From Candidatus Woesearchaeota archaeon (lineage in GTDB: Archaea; Nanobdellota; Nanobdellia; Woesearchaeales; WJIZ01), in NCBI GenBank assembly GCA_014729995.1, contig WJIZ01000037.1, positions 1 to 50,686 of the forward strand: a stretch of DNA of 50,686 bases, written 5' to 3'. Positions 1 to 11,051 of this stretch are shown here, piece by piece. A program made the position numbers and the translations under genes. The notes below the pieces were generated by a model. The model was not told where the DNA came from. It ran no database searches and saw only the letters and a list, made by a program, of their open reading frames with translations. The number at the start of each line of letters is the position of its first letter. Within the stretch, counting starts at the first letter, position 1.

Positions 1-3000
1 CACATCCATGTCAAAATAGGCTTTCCTGTTGGTCTCAGCTATCTTGCCCACGAATATGCTTCTCGGGCCTTCCTTCGGCACTTCCTTGTAATCAACTTTA
101 GCGTGGAACCTCTTTCTTTTCTCCATCTCATGCTTGATTATGAGGAATGTAGCCAGCCCAACCAGTATTATTCCGGCAATCAGGGCGAGAATCCAAAGAG
201 GAAGGAAACCAAATACCCTGTACTGATGCAGGGGATAGGCTATAGTAAAGAAAGTTTCGGTGCTGGATTCCAGCCCGAGATAATCAGCTTTTGCGCTTAA
301 TATATAATCTCCGGGCACGAAATCCTTATTTATCCTGAATGTCCTGATCAGGGAGGAAAAAGTCTGTATATTTAATTCGTGAGTTCCAATATTTGTTATA
401 TTTGTCCTGTTAATATCTGATATAGTAAAATTCAGCTTAACATCATAGCTCCTTCCTACAAGGAGGTTTATCAGGTCAAGCCCGTACTTTAAGTCATAGC
501 CTATATATGCTGTTTTCTTCAATGTGCTCAATCTCATCAAGAGTGTCTTGACAGGGATGTCTATGTCTTCTGTTATAGTCAATGCTACTGGAATATTATA
601 GCTATAGTCGCCCCGTATTTTTACGCTTCCGTAATATACCCCCTCTTCCTGGTTCCCGAGTATCCTGAATCTTATGCTTTGGGTTGTGTTTGGGGGAATA
701 ACTATCTCTTCCTTTTCAAGCTGGATAGAGGGCGACACTTTTCCCTCAAGCTGCATGGTGAGCCTTATTGCCTCGTCCTTGAAATTGTATATCGAGAACG
801 AGTCATCGATATAATTTCCCCTTTTTACTTTTTTTATTATCTCGTTTATGGAAACAAAGATATCCATTGGAGAAGGCTGCTCCATCTCTGCTTTGGAGAT
901 TGCGACCTGCTCCTCCCTTCTTGTTGATGTGTAATCCTCTGTTTTTGAAGGTGCTACGTATGCCTGGTCTGTGGGTATGGATTCCATGTATATTGTATGG
1001 TTAACTGTTTCCCCTGCCCTTACTGAGTTATTTCCTGTTAAGTTGCCCACTGAAGCAAGGTAGCCGTCCTTTAATCCGATAATGTAATAGAAGCCTGATT
1101 CAGGAACATCTATGGAGAAGTTTCCGTCAGAATCGGAGTAAGTAATATAATTTCCTACGATAACAGTTGCATTTACTATAGGAATTGTGCTGCCTTCTTC
1201 ATATACATACCCGGTTACTGTACCATTTTGCTGGGGATAGTATACCCTGCTCAATGTTATGTTGATATTCTGGCTTGTGTATCCTATGACAGATATGTTT
1301 GTGAAATAAGGAACATAGCCGTATTTGAATACTGCGAAGTCTAAATTGCTTCCTGCGTCGGGTGAGATGTTGTAGAATCCATTTGGGTCTGTCTTTTTTG
1401 CTGTCTCGTTGATTATTACGTATGCATCTTCTATAGGGCTGAGGGAAAGGTTTTCTTTTACGTAGCCGTAGACTGTACCCCAGTCTTTCGGAGTGTCTTC
1501 CCCGCTCAAAGGATATAGTGTAATATTATGGGTGAGTGTATCTTCGGGGCTGATATTTACGTAATCGAGATAGGCAGCAAATCCGCTTTTTATAGCCATC
1601 ACAGCCATATTCTGGCTTGCGGTTACAGGGAACTTATAATAGCCAGAGCTGTTTGTCATATCAGAGCCGCCGCCTGCTGCAACCATGGCATCTTCGACTG
1701 TTGAGTTATCCCTCCTGTCATGCACATAGCCCTCTAAATAGGCGTCTGAAATTTCGCCGCCTGTATATGCACTGTTTAATGTAATATTATATTCCTTGGA
1801 TTCAAACCGGTTTACGGTTACTGTGCTTATGAATGTCCTGTAAGATGTGTGCACTGCGATTATCTGGTGCGTTCCATTGCTTAACGGAAAGGTATACTGG
1901 CCTGTGGCATTACTTAAACCAGAGCCCCCTCCTGCAGATATAGTAACGTTCTGGACTGTGCAGTTCGCAAGGCTGAAGTTGAGCCTGCACCGCGAAGTAT
2001 TTTTGAATACATAACCGAAAATCTCTGCATTGTACTGCTCTCCGCCGAAATCAGGCTCCATTGAGATGTTTTTCCACGTACCGTTTTCTGAAACAACGAC
2101 ATCATCAATGTACTGCCTGTAGCCTGTTTTGGTTGCAACAACTGTGTGATTTCCAGTGTATACCAGGACGCTATAGTAGCCCGAGCCGTTGGTTGAGGTG
2201 TAGCTTCCCGAGACTTTAATAAGAACACTATCCAAGGGATTTCCAGTGTTGAGCGCTGTAACATACCCTTTTAAAAGCCCCTTTTTGGTGATTGTGTCGT
2301 TGAACAGCGGGTCTGAAATAGGATCGGGAAAGAAATAATAAGTGAGGTTGTTCTGCATGCTCCAGCCCCTCAGAGCACTCTTGTTCACGGTCAGCGGGAG
2401 CATCATCTGGTAGTTTATCAGCGTTCCAGTAAAGCCTGTTTCATAGTCTTCTGTGTCAACGACGAAAAAAAGCTGCCCGCTGCTGTCCTTAAGTGCGCCA
2501 ACCTTGAAGCTGCTGTTAAGAGGATAAGTGTGTATTGCCGGAATATTTGAAATTGTCGAGCCCCCGAAATTGACTGACATGGTATCGTTGAAAGTGTTGT
2601 CTGCAGAGAACTCGTTGGTGGAATTTACGCCCATAAAATTATTTATGTCTGAGAAAGATGCTGGAACAGGAAGATTGCTTATGGAAACATTAAGCTGCGA
2701 CTGGTTTACTGTGCTTGCATACATGTCATAGCCTGTAGAAGCGTGAATCCTAAAGAACAAGTCATACCTATATGTCTTATAATAATCGTTCTTGTCAATT
2801 TCATAAGGCCAGTGGGTCTGGTTGTTTGACGGGCTGATTATAACAAAGCCATAGAAGCCTGCCCAACCTGTGTCTCTTCTTATGCCATGAATATGTATCT
2901 GGTGGATGTATCCTGCTGTGGCGTTTATCTTGTAGCCTGCATATCCGATATAGTCCTTGATGTATACTAGAGTGAGGCTTGCAAATACCATTGAGAATAT

Positions 3001-3045
3001 TATAATCAAGGCATAAACAATCTTATAATGTTTTTTTAGTATCAT
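1..3045 (-). CDS. Large cell-surface protein with five carboxypeptidase-regulatory-like domains (partial, C-terminus outside window)
   Basis: The reading frame is open for 1015 codons from the ATG at 3045 to the window edge, with no stop, so the C-terminus is missing. Residues about 9-28 are a hydrophobic signal or anchor segment. A long Asn/Ser/Thr-rich extracellular part follows, with five successive beta-sandwich repeats of the carboxypeptidase-regulatory-like type starting near residues 259, 345, 435, 524 and 608; each begins G-Y-V and contains an NGSGYY-like turn. A second membrane span lies near residues 945-970, followed by a basic stretch (KHEMEKRKRFH). Topology is therefore mostly outside with a cytoplasmic tail. 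The start overlaps the stop of a ribbon-helix-helix fragment as ATGA. The product is probably an S-layer-like or adhesin-type protein; the exact function is unknown. Confidence 0.85.
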   Translation of the reverse strand, partial: MILKKHYKIVYALIIIFSMVFASLTLVYIKDYIGYAGYKINATAGYIHQIHIHGIRRDTGWAGFYGFVIISPSNNQTHWPYEIDKNDYYKTYRYDLFFRIHASTGYDMYASTVNQSQLNVSISNLPVPASFSDINNFMGVNSTNEFSADNTFNDTMSVNFGGSTISNIPAIHTYPLNSSFKVGALKDSSGQLFFVVDTEDYETGFTGTLINYQMMLPLTVNKSALRGWSMQNNLTYYFFPDPISDPLFNDTITKKGLLKGYVTALNTGNPLDSVLIKVSGSYTSTNGSGYYSVLVYTGNHTVVATKTGYRQYIDDVVVSENGTWKNISMEPDFGGEQYNAEIFGYVFKNTSRCRLNFSLANCTVQNVTISAGGGSGLSNATGQYTFPLSNGTHQIIAVHTSYRTFISTVTVNRFESKEYNITLNSAYTGGEISDAYLEGYVHDRRDNSTVEDAMVAAGGGSDMTNSSGYYKFPVTASQNMAVMAIKSGFAAYLDYVNISPEDTLTHNITLYPLSGEDTPKDWGTVYGYVKENLSLSPIEDAYVIINETAKKTDPNGFYNISPDAGSNLDFAVFKYGYVPYFTNISVIGYTSQNINITLSRVYYPQQNGTVTGYVYEEGSTIPIVNATVIVGNYITYSDSDGNFSIDVPESGFYYIIGLKDGYLASVGNLTGNNSVRAGETVNHTIYMESIPTDQAYVAPSKTEDYTSTRREEQVAISKAEMEQPSPMDIFVSINEIIKKVKRGNYIDDSFSIYNFKDEAIRLTMQLEGKVSPSIQLEKEEIVIPPNTTQSIRFRILGNQEEGVYYGSVKIRGDYSYNIPVALTITEDIDIPVKTLLMRLSTLKKTAYIGYDLKYGLDLINLLVGRSYDVKLNFTISDINRTNITNIGTHELNIQTFSSLIRTFRINKDFVPGDYILSAKADYLGLESSTETFFTIAYPLHQYRVFGFLPLWILALIAGIILVGLATFLIIKHEMEKRKRFHAKVDYKEVPKEGPRSIFVGKIAETNRKAYFDMDV

Positions 3046-3101
3046 ATTTCCGTATCCATCCTCCTCTTTATCAGATACTCAAACCCGTGAGAGCGGTTTG
3101 C
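3042..3101 (-). pseudogene. Duplicated 3' end of a ribbon-helix-helix gene
   Basis: Read on the minus strand, this stretch encodes ANRSHGFEYLIKRRMDTEI and then a stop whose TGA overlaps the ATG of the surface-protein gene. It matches the C-terminal half of the intact ribbon-helix-helix gene at 3193-3330 (46 identical bases) but has no beta-strand half and no start of its own. The arrangement suggests the RHH gene once ran directly into the surface-protein gene and was later split by a duplication. It may still help translational coupling, but that is inference. Confidence 0.7.
3056..3101. repeat. 46-bp direct repeat, copy 1
   Basis: The 46 bases starting CCATCCTCCTCTTTATC and ending GAGCGGTTTGC are identical to 3207-3252. 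The two copies are 151 bp apart and enclose about 105 bp that folds into two hairpins. Both copies encode the C-terminal helix of a ribbon-helix-helix protein on the minus strand. Confidence 0.95.
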
Positions 3102-3104
3102 AAC

Positions 3105-3175
3105 AACCTTTTCGAAAGGTTGACGAAAGAGCACAAGGGGGAACATTCGCTCCGCTATGCTCCGCGAAGTTCCCC
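3105..3175. other. Two strong hairpins between the direct repeats
   Basis: The first hairpin (3105-3121) pairs AACCTTT with AAAGGTT around a 3-base loop. The second (3138-3175) pairs GGGGAAC plus TTCGC with GCGAA plus GTTCCCC, a 12-bp stem with one bulged A. This insert is richer in G+C than its surroundings. It could be a palindromic mobile unit, a transcription-attenuating structure or a duplication scar; no coding frame in it looks real. Confidence 0.6.
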
Positions 3176-3192
3176 AAGGCATAAACCTGCAA

Positions 3193-3330
3193 CTACATCT
3201 CATTACCCATCCTCCTCTTTATCAGATACTCAAACCCGTGAGAGCGGTTTGCGAACGTTTTATCAGATACTTTTTTATCTATCCAGTTGAGAAGATCTTT
3301 ATCTAAAGTGACTGTAATTCTTTCTTTCAA
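3193..3330 (-). CDS. Ribbon-helix-helix DNA-binding protein (45 aa)
   Basis: A 45-residue protein begins at TTG 3330. Its N-terminal strand KERITVTLD is followed by helices with the turn ANRSHGFEYLIKRR, the CopG/Arc/MetJ ribbon-helix-helix pattern (alternating beta strand, then an N-R-S-capped second helix). A TATA-like ATTTAAATATT at about 3355-3366 is some 30 bp upstream, so the transcript may be leaderless. The gene heads the operon leading into the large surface protein, so it is probably an autoregulator of that operon. Its last codons (GNEM) come from the inserted sequence, not the original gene end. The rare TTG start is the main uncertainty. Confidence 0.72.
   Translation of the reverse strand: MKERITVTLDKDLLNWIDKKVSDKTFANRSHGFEYLIKRRMGNEM
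3207..3252. repeat. 46-bp direct repeat, copy 2
   Basis: Identical to 3056-3101. This copy lies inside the intact ribbon-helix-helix gene and encodes its second helix region. Confidence 0.95.
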
Positions 3331-3343
3331 GTTATTTAAAAAT

Positions 3344-3452
3344 CATACTAAGTAATATTTAAATGTTTTCTTTTTGTAAATTAGTATAGTAAAAAGTATA
3401 TTTTTATTTTTTTTAGATTATTTTTACATATATTTACATATTAAGTAATATT
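3344..3452 (-). promoter_or_regulatory. Promoter of the RHH/surface-protein operon with two near-identical operator-like repeats
   Basis: CATACTAAGTAATATT at 3344-3359 recurs as CATATTAAGTAATATT at 3437-3452, 15 of 16 bases matching. The first copy overlaps the TATA-like element placed for the TTG start at 3330, as a repressor site would. Ribbon-helix-helix proteins commonly autoregulate through such repeats. The region is very AT-rich, so chance similarity is possible. Confidence 0.45.
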
Positions 3453-3480
3453 AAGAAATTTGTTGAGTTCGACCAACAGT

Positions 3481-6400
3481 TTATTTAGAGAGCAAGTCAA
3501 ATGCTTTTTTGCAATCGCTGCTTATTTTGCTTTTCCAGGACTGGGGCAGCTGGGAATAGAGCTTTTGCATATCCTGATAGGCTTGTTTTGCCTGCTCTTT
3601 TTTATTCTCTGAAGCTAATTTTTCTATATTTTTTACATTCTTTAGAATCCTGTGGGAGAGAAGCTCGTTGTAGACAGCGCTTATCCTGTCAATTACTTTT
3701 TTCCTTAGGCCAGAATTAAGGCTATCGTTATATATCTTTATGAGCTCGTGGTATGTGTCTTCTGCTGCGGCTAATTTTTCTTCTGAGATCTCCTTTTCTG
3801 CTTTCTTCATCAGCTGGGTTATCTGGTGCAGGTCCCTGTTCAATATTTTCTTTATATGCGATATAGGGCTTATTTTTTCCAGTATATCATATTTCCTTAT
3901 CTTCACCAGTATTTCAAATTCATAGAAGACATAGATTATAAGCAGGAGTATAATAAGGCCTATCTGTATAACCAAAGCGGGATTTTCAATCCCTGAAAGC
4001 GAGGAGAATATTGCAAAGCCTGTAATGCCGAATCCCTTGCTTTTTTCGGGCATTGCTAAGGGATCAACCACCAGGGAGATAATCTCTTTTGTCTTTTCGA
4101 TATCAATGTCTTTCTTTATGTAATATATAACTTTCTTTGTTTCTAATGGGTCTGAGGTAAAAATAGGATCCGGCTCTATTATCTGGGTTTTAGTTATGAA
4201 TTCAATTTCATCTGTATTTTTTGCTATATCTTTTGGCAAGTAGCTTAGAATCAACTGCCTGCTGTTATCATCCTGAAGCTGGAACTCTTCCCTGATGAGA
4301 GTGATTTTCTGCTCTTCTCCTGTTAACAACACCGTGTTTATGCTTTTAACAGTCCTTATCAGAAGAAGGGATTTTTGAAGGGCTGTATTGGCTTTAACTG
4401 CCTGGCCTATATCTGTGTTCTTATTTATGGTAAAATACCTTTCTAATATTTCCCCTATGTCTTTTTCTTCGGGATAGAAATTGTATTCTTCGGTGGCTTC
4501 TACTTTGATATCCACTATTGTATTTGTTTTTATGTCCTCCAATGCTGCTTCCAATTCCTGCCTCCTCTGCTTTCTTTCCTCTTCGTCCTTTATATATTTT
4601 AATCCGTGAAAAGCACTTCCTGAACTTATCAATATTTTTTTTGCTTTCTGCAGCTTTTTTTCCATTTCAATAGTTTGGGCAGCCTCTAAATTGAGCCTGT
4701 CCATGTTATCCAGCCTGTATAATGCATCAGTGATTTGCTCTACCAGCAGGTCAACATTATCGCTGCTTTCTGGGTTTTTTACCTCTTCATGGCTTTCCAC
4801 TTCTTCCGGCCCTTCCGGTATTGTATTGTTCCCCCTGCTTTTTGGAGTTGAGATGTTTAATTGTATTGTTTTGTTTAGGTAGTATGTTTTGGAAATGTCC
4901 TGCATTAATGATATCTCATCGTTGAGGGAATTGTAATCATCTTTTATTATGACAATTCTCTTTATGCCTTCAAGCAGGGACTGGGAGACTTTTCCGCCCG
5001 AGTCTGTTGTATACTTCTCGCCCTCGATAAATACTGTTGCGCCTTTTACAGGCTCTTCGTTGCTGCTCTTAACTATTATCTCGAGGCTGTGGCTGTCTTT
5101 TACATAGATTTTTACTGTATCTGATGCTATATTTCCCAAAGAATCTTCCACCTCCAAAATGACCTCATATGTGCCTACTTTATCATATTTATGGTTAGTG
5201 TTTTTTCCGGTTGAGCTTTTGCCGTCACCAAAATCCCAGGTATATGTCCTTGAGCCGATGCCGCTTGAAACTTCAGCCTCGAACTTTATATCTTTTCCGG
5301 ATGGAACTTTGCTTTCGCTTGCAATAACAGAAGCCTTAAAGGTATTCTCTACTGAATACTCTTTTTTTATCCTCTTGATTCCATTTTCATATGTTAAAAT
5401 AGCCTCTATAGCATACTTTCCGGGTATCTTTGTCTGATTTATCTCCCCTATGATAGGATATTGCTTATCCTTAAAATAAGCGATTGCTGAATCCTCATTG
5501 GGGTTTGTGATAACTAATGTTGTTTCTGAGCCGTAGGGAGCTGTTATTATATAATATCCCTTTTGGCCTAAGCCAAACTCTTCCTTATTTAAGCTCAGGC
5601 TGAAATTTTGCTGCGTGTTAATTAGGAATTTCCTGGCTGCTGATGTGTTTGTGTTTCCTACACTGTCTGTACACCTGATATACCATTCATAAGTCCCGTT
5701 TTCCAGGTCAGAAAGTGTTATCGCCTGCAGCTCACCGCTTTTTACGTTGATGTTCTGCTTTTCATTTCCATCAAGCAAAAGCCTGCAGCTGAATTCTTCT
5801 GCAAAATTTTCCTGCGCTGTGAAGTTAAGGCTTATGTAATCCATGAATGTCAGGAACTTATCCTCTGTGTGGAGGATTATCCGGGGGGGCGTAAAATCTT
5901 CTGTCAGGGTTTTCTTGGAGCTTTCTGCCTTGGCTCCGGAAGAGTCTTCGCATGCCAGCTTATAGCTATACTCCCCCTCCTGCAGATGGTTGGGCATGGA
6001 TTTTGATTCGGAAGAAGAGGAATTCAAGATCTGGAGGGCTGCCTGCCCGTTAAGCAATAATTTGCAGCTGACTTCAGTATCAGAGTCATGATATACAAAA
6101 TAATCTATATTTATATCTGATTCTTTGCTGTAATGCTTATCATTTTCAGGGGCTAAGGATTCAATTCTGAGCGAGCCTGAATGTCCGTGGTATACTGTAA
6201 GGCTTATAGTACTGTTCTGGCCTATAGCAGAAACAGCTTTTATCCCTGAGTTGAACTGCGCTGCTTCTGCTGCAACGCTGCTGTATATTATTTCTGAATA
6301 TGGATTTTCCAGTATGGAATAATCTGCATAGATCACCTGTGCTGACACTATGTTGTTTTCAGTTGCACCAAGTTTTCCCCTGTAAAGGTTTAATTTTTCT

Positions 6401-6681
6401 CCCCAGGATGCTGAATAAGAATCTAAGTTTACTAATGCACAGCACTTACCTGCGCCATAGCAAAGCTTGTTTTTTGAGCCTGTCTCCTCCGAATATACAG
6501 TCCATTTAGTGCATAGGTTTGAGCCATGGTGCTGCCAGCTGAAGCTGCTTTCCCCTACTGAAAACTCTATGATGCTTTCTGACACCTGCCTGCTGCTTAG
6601 TGAGATGTCAATGGTTTTTTCTGCTGATACAAAGACAGACAGCAGGAGCAGCATTGCCAGGGCAAGGGAAGGAAGCTTCAT
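3481..6681 (-). CDS. Large membrane-anchored surface protein with PKD domain
   Basis: The 1066-residue product has a signal peptide at residues 1-20 and extracellular Ig-like segments with Cys pairs between about 180 and 360. A PKD domain lies at about 455-530 (core YTWDFGDGKS, then HKYDKVGTYEVILEVED). A carboxypeptidase-regulatory-like beta domain covers 530-600, followed by an acidic, helical and probably coiled-coil stretch (620-880). A single transmembrane span at about 898-925 is followed by a cytoplasmic helical tail of about 140 residues. It is an archaeal surface protein with an intracellular domain that could sense or scaffold; no enzyme motif is visible. The start overlaps the upstream RHH gene by ATGA, so translation is coupled. 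Confidence 0.88.
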   Translation of the reverse strand: MKLPSLALAMLLLLSVFVSAEKTIDISLSSRQVSESIIEFSVGESSFSWQHHGSNLCTKWTVYSEETGSKNKLCYGAGKCCALVNLDSYSASWGEKLNLYRGKLGATENNIVSAQVIYADYSILENPYSEIIYSSVAAEAAQFNSGIKAVSAIGQNSTISLTVYHGHSGSLRIESLAPENDKHYSKESDINIDYFVYHDSDTEVSCKLLLNGQAALQILNSSSSESKSMPNHLQEGEYSYKLACEDSSGAKAESSKKTLTEDFTPPRIILHTEDKFLTFMDYISLNFTAQENFAEEFSCRLLLDGNEKQNINVKSGELQAITLSDLENGTYEWYIRCTDSVGNTNTSAARKFLINTQQNFSLSLNKEEFGLGQKGYYIITAPYGSETTLVITNPNEDSAIAYFKDKQYPIIGEINQTKIPGKYAIEAILTYENGIKRIKKEYSVENTFKASVIASESKVPSGKDIKFEAEVSSGIGSRTYTWDFGDGKSSTGKNTNHKYDKVGTYEVILEVEDSLGNIASDTVKIYVKDSHSLEIIVKSSNEEPVKGATVFIEGEKYTTDSGGKVSQSLLEGIKRIVIIKDDYNSLNDEISLMQDISKTYYLNKTIQLNISTPKSRGNNTIPEGPEEVESHEEVKNPESSDNVDLLVEQITDALYRLDNMDRLNLEAAQTIEMEKKLQKAKKILISSGSAFHGLKYIKDEEERKQRRQELEAALEDIKTNTIVDIKVEATEEYNFYPEEKDIGEILERYFTINKNTDIGQAVKANTALQKSLLLIRTVKSINTVLLTGEEQKITLIREEFQLQDDNSRQLILSYLPKDIAKNTDEIEFITKTQIIEPDPIFTSDPLETKKVIYYIKKDIDIEKTKEIISLVVDPLAMPEKSKGFGITGFAIFSSLSGIENPALVIQIGLIILLLIIYVFYEFEILVKIRKYDILEKISPISHIKKILNRDLHQITQLMKKAEKEISEEKLAAAEDTYHELIKIYNDSLNSGLRKKVIDRISAVYNELLSHRILKNVKNIEKLASENKKEQAKQAYQDMQKLYSQLPQSWKSKISSDCKKAFDLLSK

Positions 6682-6962
6682 TTTTTGACCTCCCTGGCTG
6701 TTATCATGTCTTTGATTCTTCTGAGCTCGTCAAGCAGGAGCTCTTCTTTTGATTTTTGGGAGCTGTCCCTGACTGCTTCTTTTATATCTGCCCTAAGCTT
6801 CTTAATCTGGAATACTGCAGGGTCTTTCCATTCAAGCCACCTTTTCCTTACTATGCTCCTTACGGCTTCGGACAGATCAAGGTAATGGCCTTCCTTTATG
6901 GCTGCCTTTAGGGATTTCACCATTGATTCTGGCATCCTGATCGATACAATGCTGTTAGTCAT
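6678..6962 (-). CDS. Ribbon-helix-helix protein with C-terminal helical extension
   Basis: The 94-residue protein opens with SIVSIRMPESMVKSLK, a typical RHH beta strand and helix 1, followed by LDLSEAVRSIVRKRW as helix 2. Residues 45-94 form a charged helical tail that may multimerise or contact a partner. It overlaps by ATGA both the RHH gene upstream (6959-7105) and the surface-protein gene downstream (3481-6681), so the three are one translationally coupled operon. It is probably a transcriptional regulator of its own operon. Confidence 0.85.
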   Translation of the reverse strand: MTNSIVSIRMPESMVKSLKAAIKEGHYLDLSEAVRSIVRKRWLEWKDPAVFQIKKLRADIKEAVRDSSQKSKEELLLDELRRIKDMITAREVKK

Positions 6963-7105
6963 TCGTTTTCCCTCAGATGGTCGCGAAGAAAATCCCTTAT
7001 TGCCTCAGACCTTGAACCGTAAACCTGCTTATTCACCAAAGAATCAAGCCATTTAACAATATCAGATGGAAGCCTAACATTTAAAATCTGAATTTCCTGC
7101 GGCAT
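6959..7105 (-). CDS. Small ribbon-helix-helix protein (48 aa)
   Basis: ATG at 7105 opens a 48-codon frame: strand EIQILNVRLPSDIV, helix 1 KWLDSLVNKQ, and helix 2 after the turn YGSRSEAIRDFLRDHL. This is a minimal CopG-like RHH fold. Its TGA overlaps the ATG of the second RHH gene (ATGA at 6959-6962). Two consecutive, different RHH proteins in front of one surface protein is unusual and may mean a heterodimer or two levels of control. Confidence 0.88.
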   Translation of the reverse strand: MPQEIQILNVRLPSDIVKWLDSLVNKQVYGSRSEAIRDFLRDHLRENE

Positions 7106-7415
7106 TTGTAGACCAGTATACTTATGTATGATATATGTATTTTAAATCTTTATCATATGTAATATATAAACCTTTCTAATTATTTTTGTAAATTTTATGT
7201 TAGTTTTTTGTATTCTTTTTGTATGCTTTATGTAATTTACTAAATCCTATTATTTATTTTTAAATATTTTGTAATTTAATTGTATTTTATATGTAATTTT
7301 CTTGTATATCAATTTAATGCCTAATTTATTCTTGGAAATATGACTTCCAGAATTTCTTTTGATACCTCTATATACAAAAAGGAATATTTATATATGAGTT
7401 ATACTAATATCCGCT
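7106..7415. promoter_or_regulatory. Divergent AT-rich intergenic region
   Basis: This 310-bp region separates the RHH/PKD operon (minus) from a plus-strand gene. It has no plausible gene. It holds repeated TGTAAT-type words (near 7158, 7228, 7270 and 7294), including ATATGTAATATATAAA at 7155-7170, similar to motifs before the other two surface cassettes. A plus-strand TATA-like TTTATATATG lies at about 7387-7396. The minus-strand core promoter is probably the TTTAAAAT-type element near 7135-7146. Confidence 0.4.
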
Positions 7416-7427
7416 TTGGGGGTAAAT

Positions 7428-7814
7428 TTGGTAATACTATTCGACGTATTTAATCTGCCTGAAGATATTTTTGAGATTATTTTTGCTACTAAGCAGCAGA
7501 AGATAATAGCTAAAGTCCTGATAAGTGCCATGAAAGAGAACAAAGGAAGCTTTTCCAAGACCGAGATGAGCTTCTTAGCAACCCAGCTGCATGAGGGAAA
7601 GTACGTGACTGAGATAGACGAGCCGGAATACAAAGGCAAGAAAGTGAAGCTGAGCTATAACAAGAGGCAGTTTTACGACCGCATCCTCACTCCGATGAAG
7701 AGCATGGGTATGATATATTACGACCTTTACAAGAAGAATTATTCTATCTCAGACAGGTTTAATAAGGAGATGCAAAAAATCGGCCTGATGTGGCTCAGGC
7801 AAATCAAGAAATAA
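7428..7814 (+). CDS. Uncharacterised small protein, possibly winged-helix
   Basis: About 128 residues, rich in Lys and aromatic residues, with predominantly helical segments such as KQQKIIAKVLISAMKEN and FSKTEMSFLATQLHEG. It has no signal peptide, Cys or membrane span. The order of helices followed by a short hairpin (KGKKVKLSYNKRQFYDR) would fit a winged-helix DNA-binding fold, but I do not recognise the family. No ATG is available: TTG at 7428 is preceded by GGGGGT at 7418-7423 as ribosome binding site, while an in-frame TTG also exists at 7416. It stands alone between surface-protein operons. Confidence 0.65.
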   Translation: MVILFDVFNLPEDIFEIIFATKQQKIIAKVLISAMKENKGSFSKTEMSFLATQLHEGKYVTEIDEPEYKGKKVKLSYNKRQFYDRILTPMKSMGMIYYDLYKKNYSISDRFNKEMQKIGLMWLRQIKK

Positions 7815-7887
7815 GCTTATATAGATACCTGAGACTCGTTTCTTTTTCCAAGCATGAGTTCCAAAATCACTTTATTTATCTTTGAGT

Positions 7888-8649
7888 TTATTGTAATGCA
7901 ACATAAAAATAATAAGTTGTGGGTGCGGTGTTGCCTGAATGGCCGTCTTCTGCGACAATCATCTGGAAGTCCCATGGCAGATTATTGAAGCCTATTATGC
8001 CGCCCGGCCTTATGATGCTTGTATATATTACGTCATTTGCTGTTTTCTCGTACAGCATCACTTCTTGGTATGTTCCTGCTGAAGAGGCATTGCTTGAATT
8101 ATACAGGTATACGACAGGGCAGGTTTTGTTGATATAGTTGGCCCCGACGTAGAAAGGATCGTACAGCGTTGTTTCGTTGAATGTTTCGTTTATGCCGTCT
8201 GCGGAACCCGGGCTGAGCCCTAATGAAGCTTCGTAGTCTGTAAGATTAAGATAATTATCCTCGCGCTTTGAGAAGTTATAGCATTCTATATTCCCGGAGC
8301 TGAAGCTTAATTCAGATGTTGATGCGTATACCTGCCCGGAGGGGTTTGCTGTTTCCCAGTCGTATAGTATATATCCCGATGCATCTCCGAGGTTTATTGT
8401 GCCTGTGACATTTCCGTAATAGCCCTGCCATGTAAGTGTCTGGGTTTGTGCGTATATGTTAAGCTGGGTTACATTTCCAGCTATTGCATCCAGTGTACTT
8501 GCAGGAGTGAGCTGCCTTCTTGAGCTGTTTACTACTGACAGGCCTTCGGGGCCTTCGGGAACAGAAGCTGCAAGGGCGAAAGCCGCAGCTAACAGAACTG
8601 CGAATAATAAAACCGCGTGCTTATTCCGCTTGGTGATTTTCGCTTTCAT
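7888..8649 (-). CDS. Secreted protein of unknown function
   Basis: 253 residues with a basic N-terminus and hydrophobic signal segment (residues about 12-29, ending ALAAS). The mature part is rich in Asn, Ser, Thr and Tyr and has several N-x-S/T sequons (NVT, NLT, NET, NKT, NSS), suggesting a glycosylated surface protein. No second membrane span or catalytic motif is visible. The start overlaps the upstream tandem-HTH regulator gene by ATGA, so it is translated with it. I do not recognise a family. Confidence 0.8.
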   Translation of the reverse strand: MKAKITKRNKHAVLLFAVLLAAAFALAASVPEGPEGLSVVNSSRRQLTPASTLDAIAGNVTQLNIYAQTQTLTWQGYYGNVTGTINLGDASGYILYDWETANPSGQVYASTSELSFSSGNIECYNFSKREDNYLNLTDYEASLGLSPGSADGINETFNETTLYDPFYVGANYINKTCPVVYLYNSSNASSAGTYQEVMLYEKTANDVIYTSIIRPGGIIGFNNLPWDFQMIVAEDGHSGNTAPTTYYFYVALQ

Positions 8650-9107
8650 GTCTTGTTATTTATCCTCTGCCTGATTGTCCAGACGGTCTTATAATCCCGC
8701 TTTAATATTGAAGAGACCTGGTTGAGCGTGTAATTATATGAGAGAAGGTGTGCAACAATGCTTTCAAGGACGCTTAGGCTTTTGTTTTCTATTATAGACA
8801 GGGGCAGGGCTTTTCCGCGCGCTTTTAATTCAGGGACGAGCTTTTTTCTTGCCCTGTTGTATGTTGTCCTTATAGGCTGCTCTTTTCTTGCTGTCAGAAA
8901 AGCTATTTCCCTTATCGATAATTTTAGGTTTTCTTTCAGGTACTTGACTATGCTTTCCAGCGAGCCCAGCTTCTTATTGAAAATTGATAAAGGTATGCCT
9001 ATATTCTTTTTTTCAGCCAAATCCAGAATTTCCTTATAGCTTAGCCTATACTTTTGCTCTAAATTTTTTATATCTTTGAACAGCTGTTCTGTTTTTTGAA
9101 TATCCAT
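8646..9107 (-). CDS. Tandem helix-turn-helix DNA-binding protein
   Basis: The 153-residue protein carries two copies of a module of about 50 residues. Copy 1 (about 37-88) begins IPLSIFNKKLGSLESIVKYL and copy 2 (about 99-150) begins LPLSIIENKSLSVLESIVAHL. Each ends in a sigma-region-4-like HTH (IREIAFLTARKEQPIRTTYNRA and LNQVSSILKRDYKTVWTIRQ). This internal duplication gives a likely two-headed DNA binder reading direct repeats. It is coupled by ATGA to the secreted protein downstream and is probably a regulator of that operon. Confidence 0.75.
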   Translation of the reverse strand: MDIQKTEQLFKDIKNLEQKYRLSYKEILDLAEKKNIGIPLSIFNKKLGSLESIVKYLKENLKLSIREIAFLTARKEQPIRTTYNRARKKLVPELKARGKALPLSIIENKSLSVLESIVAHLLSYNYTLNQVSSILKRDYKTVWTIRQRINNKT

Positions 9108-9108
9108 T

Positions 9109-9184
9109 TACTAATTAGTATACTATTTTAATACTATGTAATAATATTTATATATAAATTTATCTATTTTTTAATACTATGTAA
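9109..9184 (-). promoter_or_regulatory. Operator-like repeats and TATA box before the tandem-HTH gene
   Basis: The 16-mer TTTTAATACTATGTAA occurs at 9126-9141 and again at 9169-9184, 43 bp apart and flanking a TATA-like TTTATATATAAAT (9147-9159). A perfect 12-bp palindrome TACTAATTAGTA lies at 9109-9120, just before the ATG. Two direct repeats suit a regulator with two HTH copies. Binding is inference. Confidence 0.55.
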
Positions 9185-9317
9185 GAAAAGGATTTTTAGT
9201 TAGGCTGATATGAATTCACTCAGGGTATGAAACGAATAAAAATAAGAAGAAAGCGGCTGATTTTAAACCAGCATGAAATGAAAAATGTCGGCCTGTTCTT
9301 ATTTGCAGGATTAAGGA

Positions 9318-11051
9318 TTATTTCAGACTGACCCCGCACTTTTTGCATTTCTTTCTGTTGCGTAAATTCTTATGGCCGCAGTTCGGACATTTCTTTTTTG
9401 TTAGTGTGATCAGCACTAAGATGACAAGTATTATTATCAGTGCAGTGAGCAGATAGGTAAGCAGCGTAGCTTCCTTTATAACGAGATCAAACCTTCCTTC
9501 GATTATTTTTACTAGGGCATTTTCCCTTTCCCCATAATAAGACCTTACTGTAATGGTGGGATTATCCTCTATGTCTTCTTCGTCCATCTCAACAGGCAGG
9601 TATGCTTTTCCTTTTTTTCCGGGCTCTATGCTTATTACCCCTTCGGAGCTCAGCGTAATCCTTTCGCCCTGAATAATTATATCAATTATTTCGGTATCTA
9701 CATACACTTTTTTCTTTCCTATATTTTCTATTATTACAACAAACCTTTCCTTGAGCTTATCGTAATATACGTTGTCATATTGTATCTTGGTGTCATCCTG
9801 TATCTCAATGGTTGAAACGCCTATAACGCCGTCCAGGACAAATTCCAGGGAATTTTTTGATTCTCCGTAAATGGTGTAGTAATCAAGCTCTGCCTCGTCT
9901 GCAAGCAAAGGCTCTACATCATAGACCACTGTCTTAAAGCTGTTGGCTGCTATGAAAACCGGCTCCAAGTCGCCGAAAGACTGCTCGTTATCACCCTCTA
10001 TCAACGTATACGAGCCTTTGAAATAGGTGACTACATCGGCATTATTCCTGTATGTTATCTCTACCTGCCTGGTTATTTTATTATACCTTACTGCTGAGAC
10101 GTTCAATGAGAGCGAGATTTTAGGCACTTCGAAGATATCCAGATGCTCCACCTGGGCAATCGAGCCCTGGGGGGCCCTTGCTGACCTTGCAAATTTCACA
10201 AATGTTGCAATGCCGAGTTCCCTCCTGACTATGGTTGCGGTTCCCACCAAGTCATTGCCTATTAAGACGCCTGTATTGATATCAGAATTCGTCACGTATT
10301 CCTTTACCTTATCAGGGACATTATTCCTGCCGATGAACAGTGTGGGATATTCCCCTGACATCAGGCTGGCTTCAATGAATTCGCCGTTTGACATCAATAC
10401 CTGGCCGACAGGCTTTTTTTCGACGTATTTCTTTACTATTTCCACATTGTTAGCAAACCTGTCCCCGTCTATGTTTATGATTTCGGGCTCGAATTTTTCC
10501 AAAGCGCCTGTGACTTCCCTGTCAACATGCCCGTATATAAGCAATTCCTCGGGCTGCCTTTCATCAAGGAAATTCTCAATTTCAACTATATTGGTTTTGT
10601 CTGCGAAGAGGACATATGACTTGGATATTGCAGCATATGGCGCGACGGCGATTGAGTTGTAACCATATGAATAATCTGTTATAATAAAGTTGTTTATATC
10701 TTCGAGGTCTTTTGCCAATTCCAGGCTGAGGCTGTCAAACTGCCTCTCTTCAACATCCTGGTATCCCCTATTTTTTATTGTGGACTCATATCCAAAAACA
10801 AAAGGCCTTTTCCGGGAGCTCAAGATTGTTATACTGTCTTCTTTGGGTATTGCATTCAGTATTATTGTTGAATGGGGCTCGCTTTCCAGGAAACGAGGCG
10901 CTTTTCCCGCAAAGCCGCCATACATCATTCCTGAATATACGTCTTTCCAGTCCTTGGAATTTATAATAACAACTTCCTTTGCTGCAGCGAATGAGCATAC
11001 CAGCAGCAGGCTGAACAAGAAGAATAAAAGCCCCTTTTTTGACCAAACCAT
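9318..11051 (-). CDS. Membrane-anchored surface protein with cytoplasmic zinc ribbon
   Basis: 577 residues. A signal peptide (1-24) is followed by an N-terminal alpha/beta region with repeated blocks resembling cell-wall-binding or S-layer-associated repeats (VVIINSKDWKDVYSG; YVLFADKTNIVEIENFL; PTLFIGRNNVPDKVKEYV). Beta-rich domains cover about 280-510. One membrane span lies at 525-547, and a short Cys4 zinc ribbon (CPNCGHKN ... CKKCG) ends the protein on the cytoplasmic side. A TATA-like TATTTAAA at 11073-11080 is about 26 bp before the ATG, so the transcript is probably leaderless. It may recognise surface polymer and signal or anchor inside; no enzymatic motif is seen. Confidence 0.82.
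   Translation of the reverse strand: MVWSKKGLLFFLFSLLLVCSFAAAKEVVIINSKDWKDVYSGMMYGGFAGKAPRFLESEPHSTIILNAIPKEDSITILSSRKRPFVFGYESTIKNRGYQDVEERQFDSLSLELAKDLEDINNFIITDYSYGYNSIAVAPYAAISKSYVLFADKTNIVEIENFLDERQPEELLIYGHVDREVTGALEKFEPEIINIDGDRFANNVEIVKKYVEKKPVGQVLMSNGEFIEASLMSGEYPTLFIGRNNVPDKVKEYVTNSDINTGVLIGNDLVGTATIVRRELGIATFVKFARSARAPQGSIAQVEHLDIFEVPKISLSLNVSAVRYNKITRQVEITYRNNADVVTYFKGSYTLIEGDNEQSFGDLEPVFIAANSFKTVVYDVEPLLADEAELDYYTIYGESKNSLEFVLDGVIGVSTIEIQDDTKIQYDNVYYDKLKERFVVIIENIGKKKVYVDTEIIDIIIQGERITLSSEGVISIEPGKKGKAYLPVEMDEEDIEDNPTITVRSYYGERENALVKIIEGRFDLVIKEATLLTYLLTALIIILVILVLITLTKKKCPNCGHKNLRNRKKCKKCGVSLK

Follow-up and report, generated by a model that had tools for sequence, protein, structure and literature searches.

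Small, predicted DNA-binding genes precede surface-protein genes in three putatively self-regulating cassettes of a Woesearchaeota archaeon

The window analyzed here, 50,686 bp, is a complete contig (C37) of a Candidatus Woesearchaeota archaeon whose genome, G000, comprises 1.33 Mb in 45 contigs and is 98% complete. Three minus-strand cassettes lie in it, each with small genes, predicted to encode DNA-binding proteins, ahead of a gene for a surface protein. In the order of transcription, a tandem helix-turn-helix (HTH) gene, HTH153, is followed by SP253; two ribbon-helix-helix (RHH) genes, RHH-a and RHH-b, are followed by a gene for a PKD-domain protein; and a further RHH gene, RHH1, is followed by a 53-aa open reading frame (ORF) and a gene for a protein with carboxypeptidase-regulatory repeats (Table 1). 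Stop-start overlaps of the form ATGA lie at 3042-3045, 6678-6681, 6959-6962 and 8646-8649, four in all, and an N-terminal transmembrane (TM) segment or signal peptide is present in all three surface proteins; the ORF of the first is cut by the contig end and has orthologs in the related genomes G005 and G002. A previous, sequence-only reading of this DNA had described these ORFs and overlaps, and operons that each end in a secreted or membrane-anchored protein, and both descriptions hold. We consider it likely that the cassettes are cis-autoregulated, translationally coupled units of regulator and surface protein, most likely repressed, with DNA binding, repression and coupling all predicted. 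The argument draws on sequence: the order of the genes and their overlaps, their conservation, the operator-like repeats dedicated to each cassette type, and gene fusions.

Table 1. Genes and operator-like elements of the three cassettes, in window coordinates.
Feature	Position	Strand	Description
Surface protein 1	1-3045	-	N-terminal TM/signal anchor, carboxypeptidase-regulatory-like repeats, C-terminal TM; Pfam CarboxypepD_reg, E 5e-27
53-aa ORF, relic of second RHH1 copy	3042-3203	-	11-nt overlap with RHH1, ATGA overlap with surface protein 1
RHH1, 45-aa ribbon-helix-helix protein, TTG start	3193-3330	-	NikR-type RHH match, E 4e-6; orthologs, E ~1e-31
RHH1 operator-like direct repeats TATTACTYAGTATG	3344-3451	.	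3344-3357 exact, 3437-3451 variant; flank TATA-like region
Surface protein 2	3481-6681	-	Signal peptide, Ig/PKD domains, C-terminal TM, cytoplasmic tail; Pfam PKD_4, E 4e-17; orthologs, E down to 5e-292
RHH-b, 94 aa	6678-6962	-	C-terminal helical extension; RHH_1 weak, E 0.003; ATGA overlap with surface protein 2
RHH-a, 48-aa RHH protein	6959-7105	-	RHH_1 above cut-off; ATGA overlap with RHH-b
RHH-a/b operator-like array	7209-7306	-	TACA half-sites at 11-bp steps, 7209-7234 and 7270-7306; Tandem Repeats Finder period 11
Surface protein 3 (SP253 family)	7888-8649	-	Signal peptide, beta-rich domain with WQGYYGNVTG motif; no Pfam family
Tandem HTH protein (HTH153), 153 aa	8646-9107	-	Two sigma-region-4-like domains; ATGA overlap with surface protein 3
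HTH operator-like direct repeats	9126-9187	.	9126-9144 and 9169-9187, spacing 43 bp; flank TATA-like TTTATATATAAA at 9147-9158

By themselves, even three together, the overlaps are weak evidence. Our overlap counts and operator scans covered ~950 kb of G000, where 81 of 635 co-directional gene pairs (12.8%) overlap by 4 nt, 57 of the 635 combine an overlap of 1-25 nt with a downstream gene for a signal-peptide or TM protein, and 28% of the downstream genes encode such a protein. Because 12.8% of same-strand neighbors overlap, three overlaps together prove little, and it is the relatives that decide. We counted overlaps at 77 named loci, picked by HTH sequence alone and holding 82 separate HTH genes. 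A signal-peptide or TM gene comes next to 72 of these genes and is overlapped by 62, as against 13 of 244 control genes (soluble, of similar size, from G000, with the same preference for overlapping ATG starts; odds ratio 55, Fisher P = 7e-36). Overlap lengths are mostly -4 (28 cases), -8, -11, -14 and -17, and start codons are partly uncertain. The repeated regulator/surface-protein design proposed in the sequence-only reading is supported by this enrichment over background, and also by the conserved order of the RHH pair and the PKD gene described below.

The AlphaFold model of the tandem HTH protein has two HTH domains (pLDDT 94.5). Single domains resemble region 4 of the sigma factors SigW and SigR, with a TM-score of 0.80, by target length, to SigW domain 4; nothing in the PDB matched the whole protein. 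Pfam Sigma70_r4_2 was matched by 38 of 40 homologs at a relaxed threshold, and no dedicated family was found in Pfam or NCBIfam. We detected no sigma region 2, so that the protein lacks the combination of regions 2 and 4 found in extracytoplasmic function (ECF) sigma factors; having no TM segment, the window protein is not a one-polypeptide transmembrane regulator either. The family is present in 41 of 60 close genomes and in 128 of 279 genomes of the phylum (Nanoarchaeota), in multiple copies (five genes in G000, up to 11 matches in G001), and its best 77 relatives among 84,980 species genomes are nearly all from Woesearchaeota, Pacearchaeota, Nanoarchaeia or Nanoarchaeota, which places the source of the window among the DPANN archaea. 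We found no description of it in the openly accessible literature. Two open frames of >2000 aa at the HTH loci L170 and L171 (G105, G167) consisted of runs of N and were dropped.

Upstream of HTH153 are two 19-nt direct repeats, 43 bp apart, on either side of a TATA-like element, and the orthologs in G005, G002 and G021 have the same repeat variant at spacings of 43-46. Unseeded motif search by expectation maximization gave T-rich low-complexity sequence, and word counts and a seeded position weight matrix were used instead. The word TACTTACA occurs in 17 of 53 HTH promoters (0.4 expected) and, in a replicate from which promoters already used were excluded, in 22 of 61 further ones (0.7 expected); the seeded consensus is TACTTACATAATAAGTA. 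The repeat spacings are helically phased (R 0.70; replicate P about 1e-6). Scanning G000 with the matrix, we found 22 sites that score above 13 bits; almost all stand upstream of HTH genes, and RHH1 and an RHH1-like gene have such sites too. The promoters of the other two cassettes carry arrays of different kinds. In 16 promoters of the RHH-a operon we counted 43 TACA pairs at 11 bp, with 0.55 expected, and the triple 11-bp TACA array occurs in the scanned part of G000 before RHH-a only. The element TATTACTYAGTATG stands twice before RHH1 and is conserved in three genera, the G005 and G002 promoters included; its exact site has no other occurrence in the scanned part. Each regulator type thus has a private operator-like array, and because the operators are private we rejected a common regulon for all three cassettes. 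A dedicated, phased repeat array in the regulator's own promoter is what an autoregulated operon would have, and at the level of sequence it favors the autoregulation that had been suggested for these genes. At another locus of G000 (L054:229-558, C26), about eight operator-like sites lie upstream of an HTH gene, with a large membrane protein 110 nt downstream.

The surface proteins paired with HTH genes are of at least two kinds. Some are of the SP253 type, often in arrays; at L153, L152, L183, L184 and L238, about 4 to 6 paralogous SP253-type proteins are arrayed around a tandem HTH gene. The structure model of SP253 itself, of moderate confidence, had no PDB match, and no function was assigned from it. 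Others are large single-TM proteins with ~85 cytoplasmic residues and an ectodomain that can reach ~2,600 aa, and laminin-G domains occur in some of them; an N-terminal cytoplasmic helical region of ~85 aa ahead of the TM segment is found in many HTH partners. In several genomes, a giant surface protein with Ig, H-type-lectin or similar domains carries the tandem HTH as its own C-terminus in place of a separate gene, preceded by a hydrophobic segment (GSWTIxILLVA type) and then a basic cluster. These fused relatives have the makeup of transmembrane transcription regulators, the segments being weakly hydrophobic in some. Both forms occur at L168: an HTH gene overlaps by 11 nt a surface-protein gene whose 1,666-aa product carries the HTH module at its own C-terminus. 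Each of three fused genes whose 5' ends are intact has two sites of the operator motif derived from unfused HTH genes, a result matched by 0 of 300 shuffles. The most telling indication that regulator and surface protein make up one functional unit is gene fusion combined with a shared operator. At L230, about 140 nt upstream of a fused gene (start near 4479), there are ~3 copies of a 29-bp tandem repeat, TATACACTACATTTTTTAACAATAAAGGC, a possible length-variable element.

RHH-a matches Pfam RHH_1 at 29.0 bits (cut-off 20.5) and belongs to the RHH superfamily, and RHH-b and RHH1 match ParD or NikR models at E 1e-4 to 4e-6, under those models' own cut-offs. Relatives of RHH-b are found in 22 of 60 relatives' genomes, mostly in single copy. 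The tandem pair is conserved, RHH-b overlaps the next surface gene in most genomes, and the order RHH-a/RHH-b/PKD is kept, with its short overlaps, across the order; the block around the cassettes is syntenic in G002 and G005. No RHH1 gene stands between RHH-b and the PKD and carboxypeptidase-repeat genes downstream of it in G001, G047 and G025, and RHH1 was therefore probably inserted later into an older single operon.

The 53-aa ORF shares 49 nt, 98% identical, with the 3' end of RHH1, the match being limited to the last ~20 codons, and its place in G002 and G005 is taken by two RHH1 genes in tandem, both intact. By this comparison it is what remains of a second RHH1 copy and not a regulator. 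The statement of the sequence-only reading that small DNA-binding genes precede each surface gene stands, at the level of prediction, for RHH-a, RHH-b, RHH1 and the tandem HTH gene, and needs refining for the 53-aa ORF, which is not an intact DNA-binding gene; what had been called a duplicated 3' fragment is a relic of a second gene. The chain of coupling from RHH1 through the 53-aa ORF to the surface gene could still work, because the ORF still overlaps both, by 11 nt on the RHH1 side and by 4 nt on the side of the surface gene. Within the relic lies a hairpin-rich insert (3103-3196); we rejected it as a repeated mobile element, as no other copy occurs in the scanned part of G000.

In the model we propose, a phased-repeat promoter with a dedicated operator would give rise to one mRNA, whose first product is a small DNA-binding regulator, either a tandem sigma4-like HTH or an RHH pair, and whose next, reached through the stop-start overlap, is the surface protein. 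The regulator would bind the repeats on both sides of its own promoter's TATA box, most likely as a repressor; repression is probably to be preferred to activation because the repeats sit on both sides of that box. Surface-protein output would be set by this feedback, and translational coupling by termination-reinitiation would keep surface protein and regulator in step. That overlaps of this class couple translation in archaea has experimental support (PMC6728339, PMC10666635). In split cassettes the regulator would be soluble, and in the fused relatives the HTH, as the C-terminal tail of a giant surface protein, would act on its own promoter from the membrane. Provided that this tail is cytoplasmic, the fused forms would exert membrane feedback directly; sensing, or contact of the two partners, is predicted. 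As a tentative extension, for which we would claim somewhat less than an even chance, this may be a lineage-wide feedback from surface to promoter, in which the state or amount of a Nanoarchaeota surface protein controls its own gene through a coupled or tail tandem sigma4-like module reading a private operator, and in which multi-copy cassettes allow alternative surfaces.

Several observations weigh against the model. RHH-b, which is homologous to RHH proteins, scores 17.9 bits with RHH_1, under the cut-off of 20.5, and RHH1 has no curated Pfam match, being under the Pfam cut-off, its match to the NikR RHH domain having E 4e-6. About half of the HTH promoters lack a clear consensus site, through divergent sites or wrong start codons, and about 28% of G000 lies outside the operator scan and may hold further sites. 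Ten of the 82 HTH genes have no called signal-peptide or TM neighbor, and a minority do not overlap a surface gene; the calls were made by simple hydropathy rather than with SignalP, and the loci, sharing ancestry, do not count as independent. In several fusions the C-terminal segments are weakly hydrophobic.

The pairing of regulator and surface protein might be incidental, a product of ordinary operon packing in a compact genome, as the frequencies of exact 4-nt overlaps and of signal-peptide or TM genes downstream in G000 would allow. The HTH enrichment already contradicts this, both module types are conserved across the order, the promoters have dedicated repeats and natural HTH-surface fusions exist, and we regard mere packing as very improbable. 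Still harder to credit are toxin-antitoxin-like operons with the RHH proteins as antitoxins. RHH-a and RHH-b weakly match ParD antitoxins, and autoregulation through arrays bound by RHH proteins is typical of toxin-antitoxin operons; the product downstream is nevertheless a secreted surface protein of ~1000 aa in nearly all genomes, a domain search of the products downstream of RHH genes found no toxin domain, and where a type II system would have a small toxin gene beside the RHH gene there are genes for large secreted or membrane proteins.

Phase or antigenic variation, tentatively suggested in the sequence-only reading, would make the cassettes alternatives, expressed one at a time through DNA rearrangement or mutual repression. 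It draws on the copy number of the HTH family, the paralogous SP253 arrays, the 29-bp tandem repeats in one fused-gene promoter and the presence of several paralogs with near-identical operators in one genome, for which cross-repression is conceivable. The RHH cassettes, however, are syntenic and usually single-copy, and the operator differs between cassette types. The first 11 kb of the window, with its promoters, showed no invertible element or coding-region repeat tract, and the short tandem repeats found there are AT-rich promoter repeats only, mostly the operator arrays themselves. We consider switching unsupported here and improbable. Among HTH cassettes, with a multi-copy family near paralogous surface-gene arrays, there may be alternative expression, and paralogs with similar operators could cross-regulate. 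A refinement that does not exclude autoregulated coupling is a sensor resembling a sigma/anti-sigma pair, in which the surface protein would hold the HTH protein at the membrane until a signal releases it. The HTH domains are sigma4-like, many partners have the ~85-aa cytoplasmic helical region, and HTH modules are fused to surface proteins; against it, sigma region 2 is missing, archaeal RNA polymerase works without a sigma factor, and the window partner SP253 is almost without a cytoplasmic part and resembles a protein with a cleavable signal peptide. We judge such a sensor unlikely, with some chance of being right. Autoregulated, translationally coupled cassettes are the reading we prefer.

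Further loci of G000 show similar arrangements. At L133:2248-11503 (C45), a 66-aa putative RHH-like gene without a Pfam match overlaps by 17 nt the gene for a 3,023-aa Ig/cadherin-repeat membrane protein, a candidate regulator/surface pair. An 83-aa winged-HTH-like gene at L088:12269-17487 (C39) has a 10-nt overlap with a gene for a 1,658-aa membrane protein, and a 53-aa RHH/HTH-like gene at L014:2383-4574 (C13) has a 4-nt overlap with one for a 677-aa N-terminally anchored protein. At L131:6026-10604 (C43), a type II/IV secretion ATPase gene (T2SSE, E 7e-12) begins 1 nt after a 45-aa RHH1-like gene and is accompanied by a multi-TM gene; an operator site of the HTH type lies close by, at 10689.

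To our knowledge, the control of Nanoarchaeota and Woesearchaeota surface proteins, which are thought to be used for attachment to partner cells, is largely uncharacterized. The cassettes suggest that these tiny, mostly uncultured archaea, thought to grow attached to other cells, control their surface through feedback built into the surface-gene operons themselves. With the HTH family in nearly half of the sampled phylum genomes and predicted operators that can be tested in vitro, they offer a direct handle on surface control, and if surface proteins end in a DNA-binding domain, giant adhesin-like proteins would be added to the membrane-tethered regulators of transcription.

Membrane-tethered transcription regulators are widespread, as a census has shown (PMC10269533), and ArnR and ArnR1 control archaeal surface structures (PMC6396743). 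A DNA-binding domain and a membrane-spanning protein with an outer part are joined in the fused relatives, as in ToxR/CadC and ArnR/ArnR1, and ArnR too acts on surface structures. ArnR, however, is a regulator-type protein with an N-terminal HTH and two C-terminal TM segments, whereas here a tandem sigma4-like HTH stands at the C-terminus of a giant surface protein and, in most genomes, the DNA-binding part is a separate, overlapping gene. ECF sigma factors with membrane anti-sigma factors also pair a sigma4-like HTH gene with an overlapping membrane-protein gene under an autoregulated promoter, but here there are two HTH domains, no sigma region 2 and archaeal transcription, and the operators lie on both sides of TATA and do not themselves form -35/-10 elements. 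Known RHH autoregulators (the NikR N-domain, ParD, CdrS, Arc/MetJ type) share with the RHH cassettes the fold and short phased repeat arrays in their own promoters; two tandem RHH genes coupled to a large surface protein, with neither a nickel-binding domain nor a toxin, set the cassettes apart. Coupled archaeal gene pairs have the same 4-nt stop-start overlaps, often for interacting partners (PMC6728339, PMC10666635), whereas here a predicted DNA-binding protein is paired with a surface protein that is secreted or membrane-bound. The hypervariable modules of Thermococcales are likewise built around large Ig-type surface proteins (PMC8416519), but there the large gene comes first in the operon, and helix-turn-helix, HTH and RHH are absent from that text.

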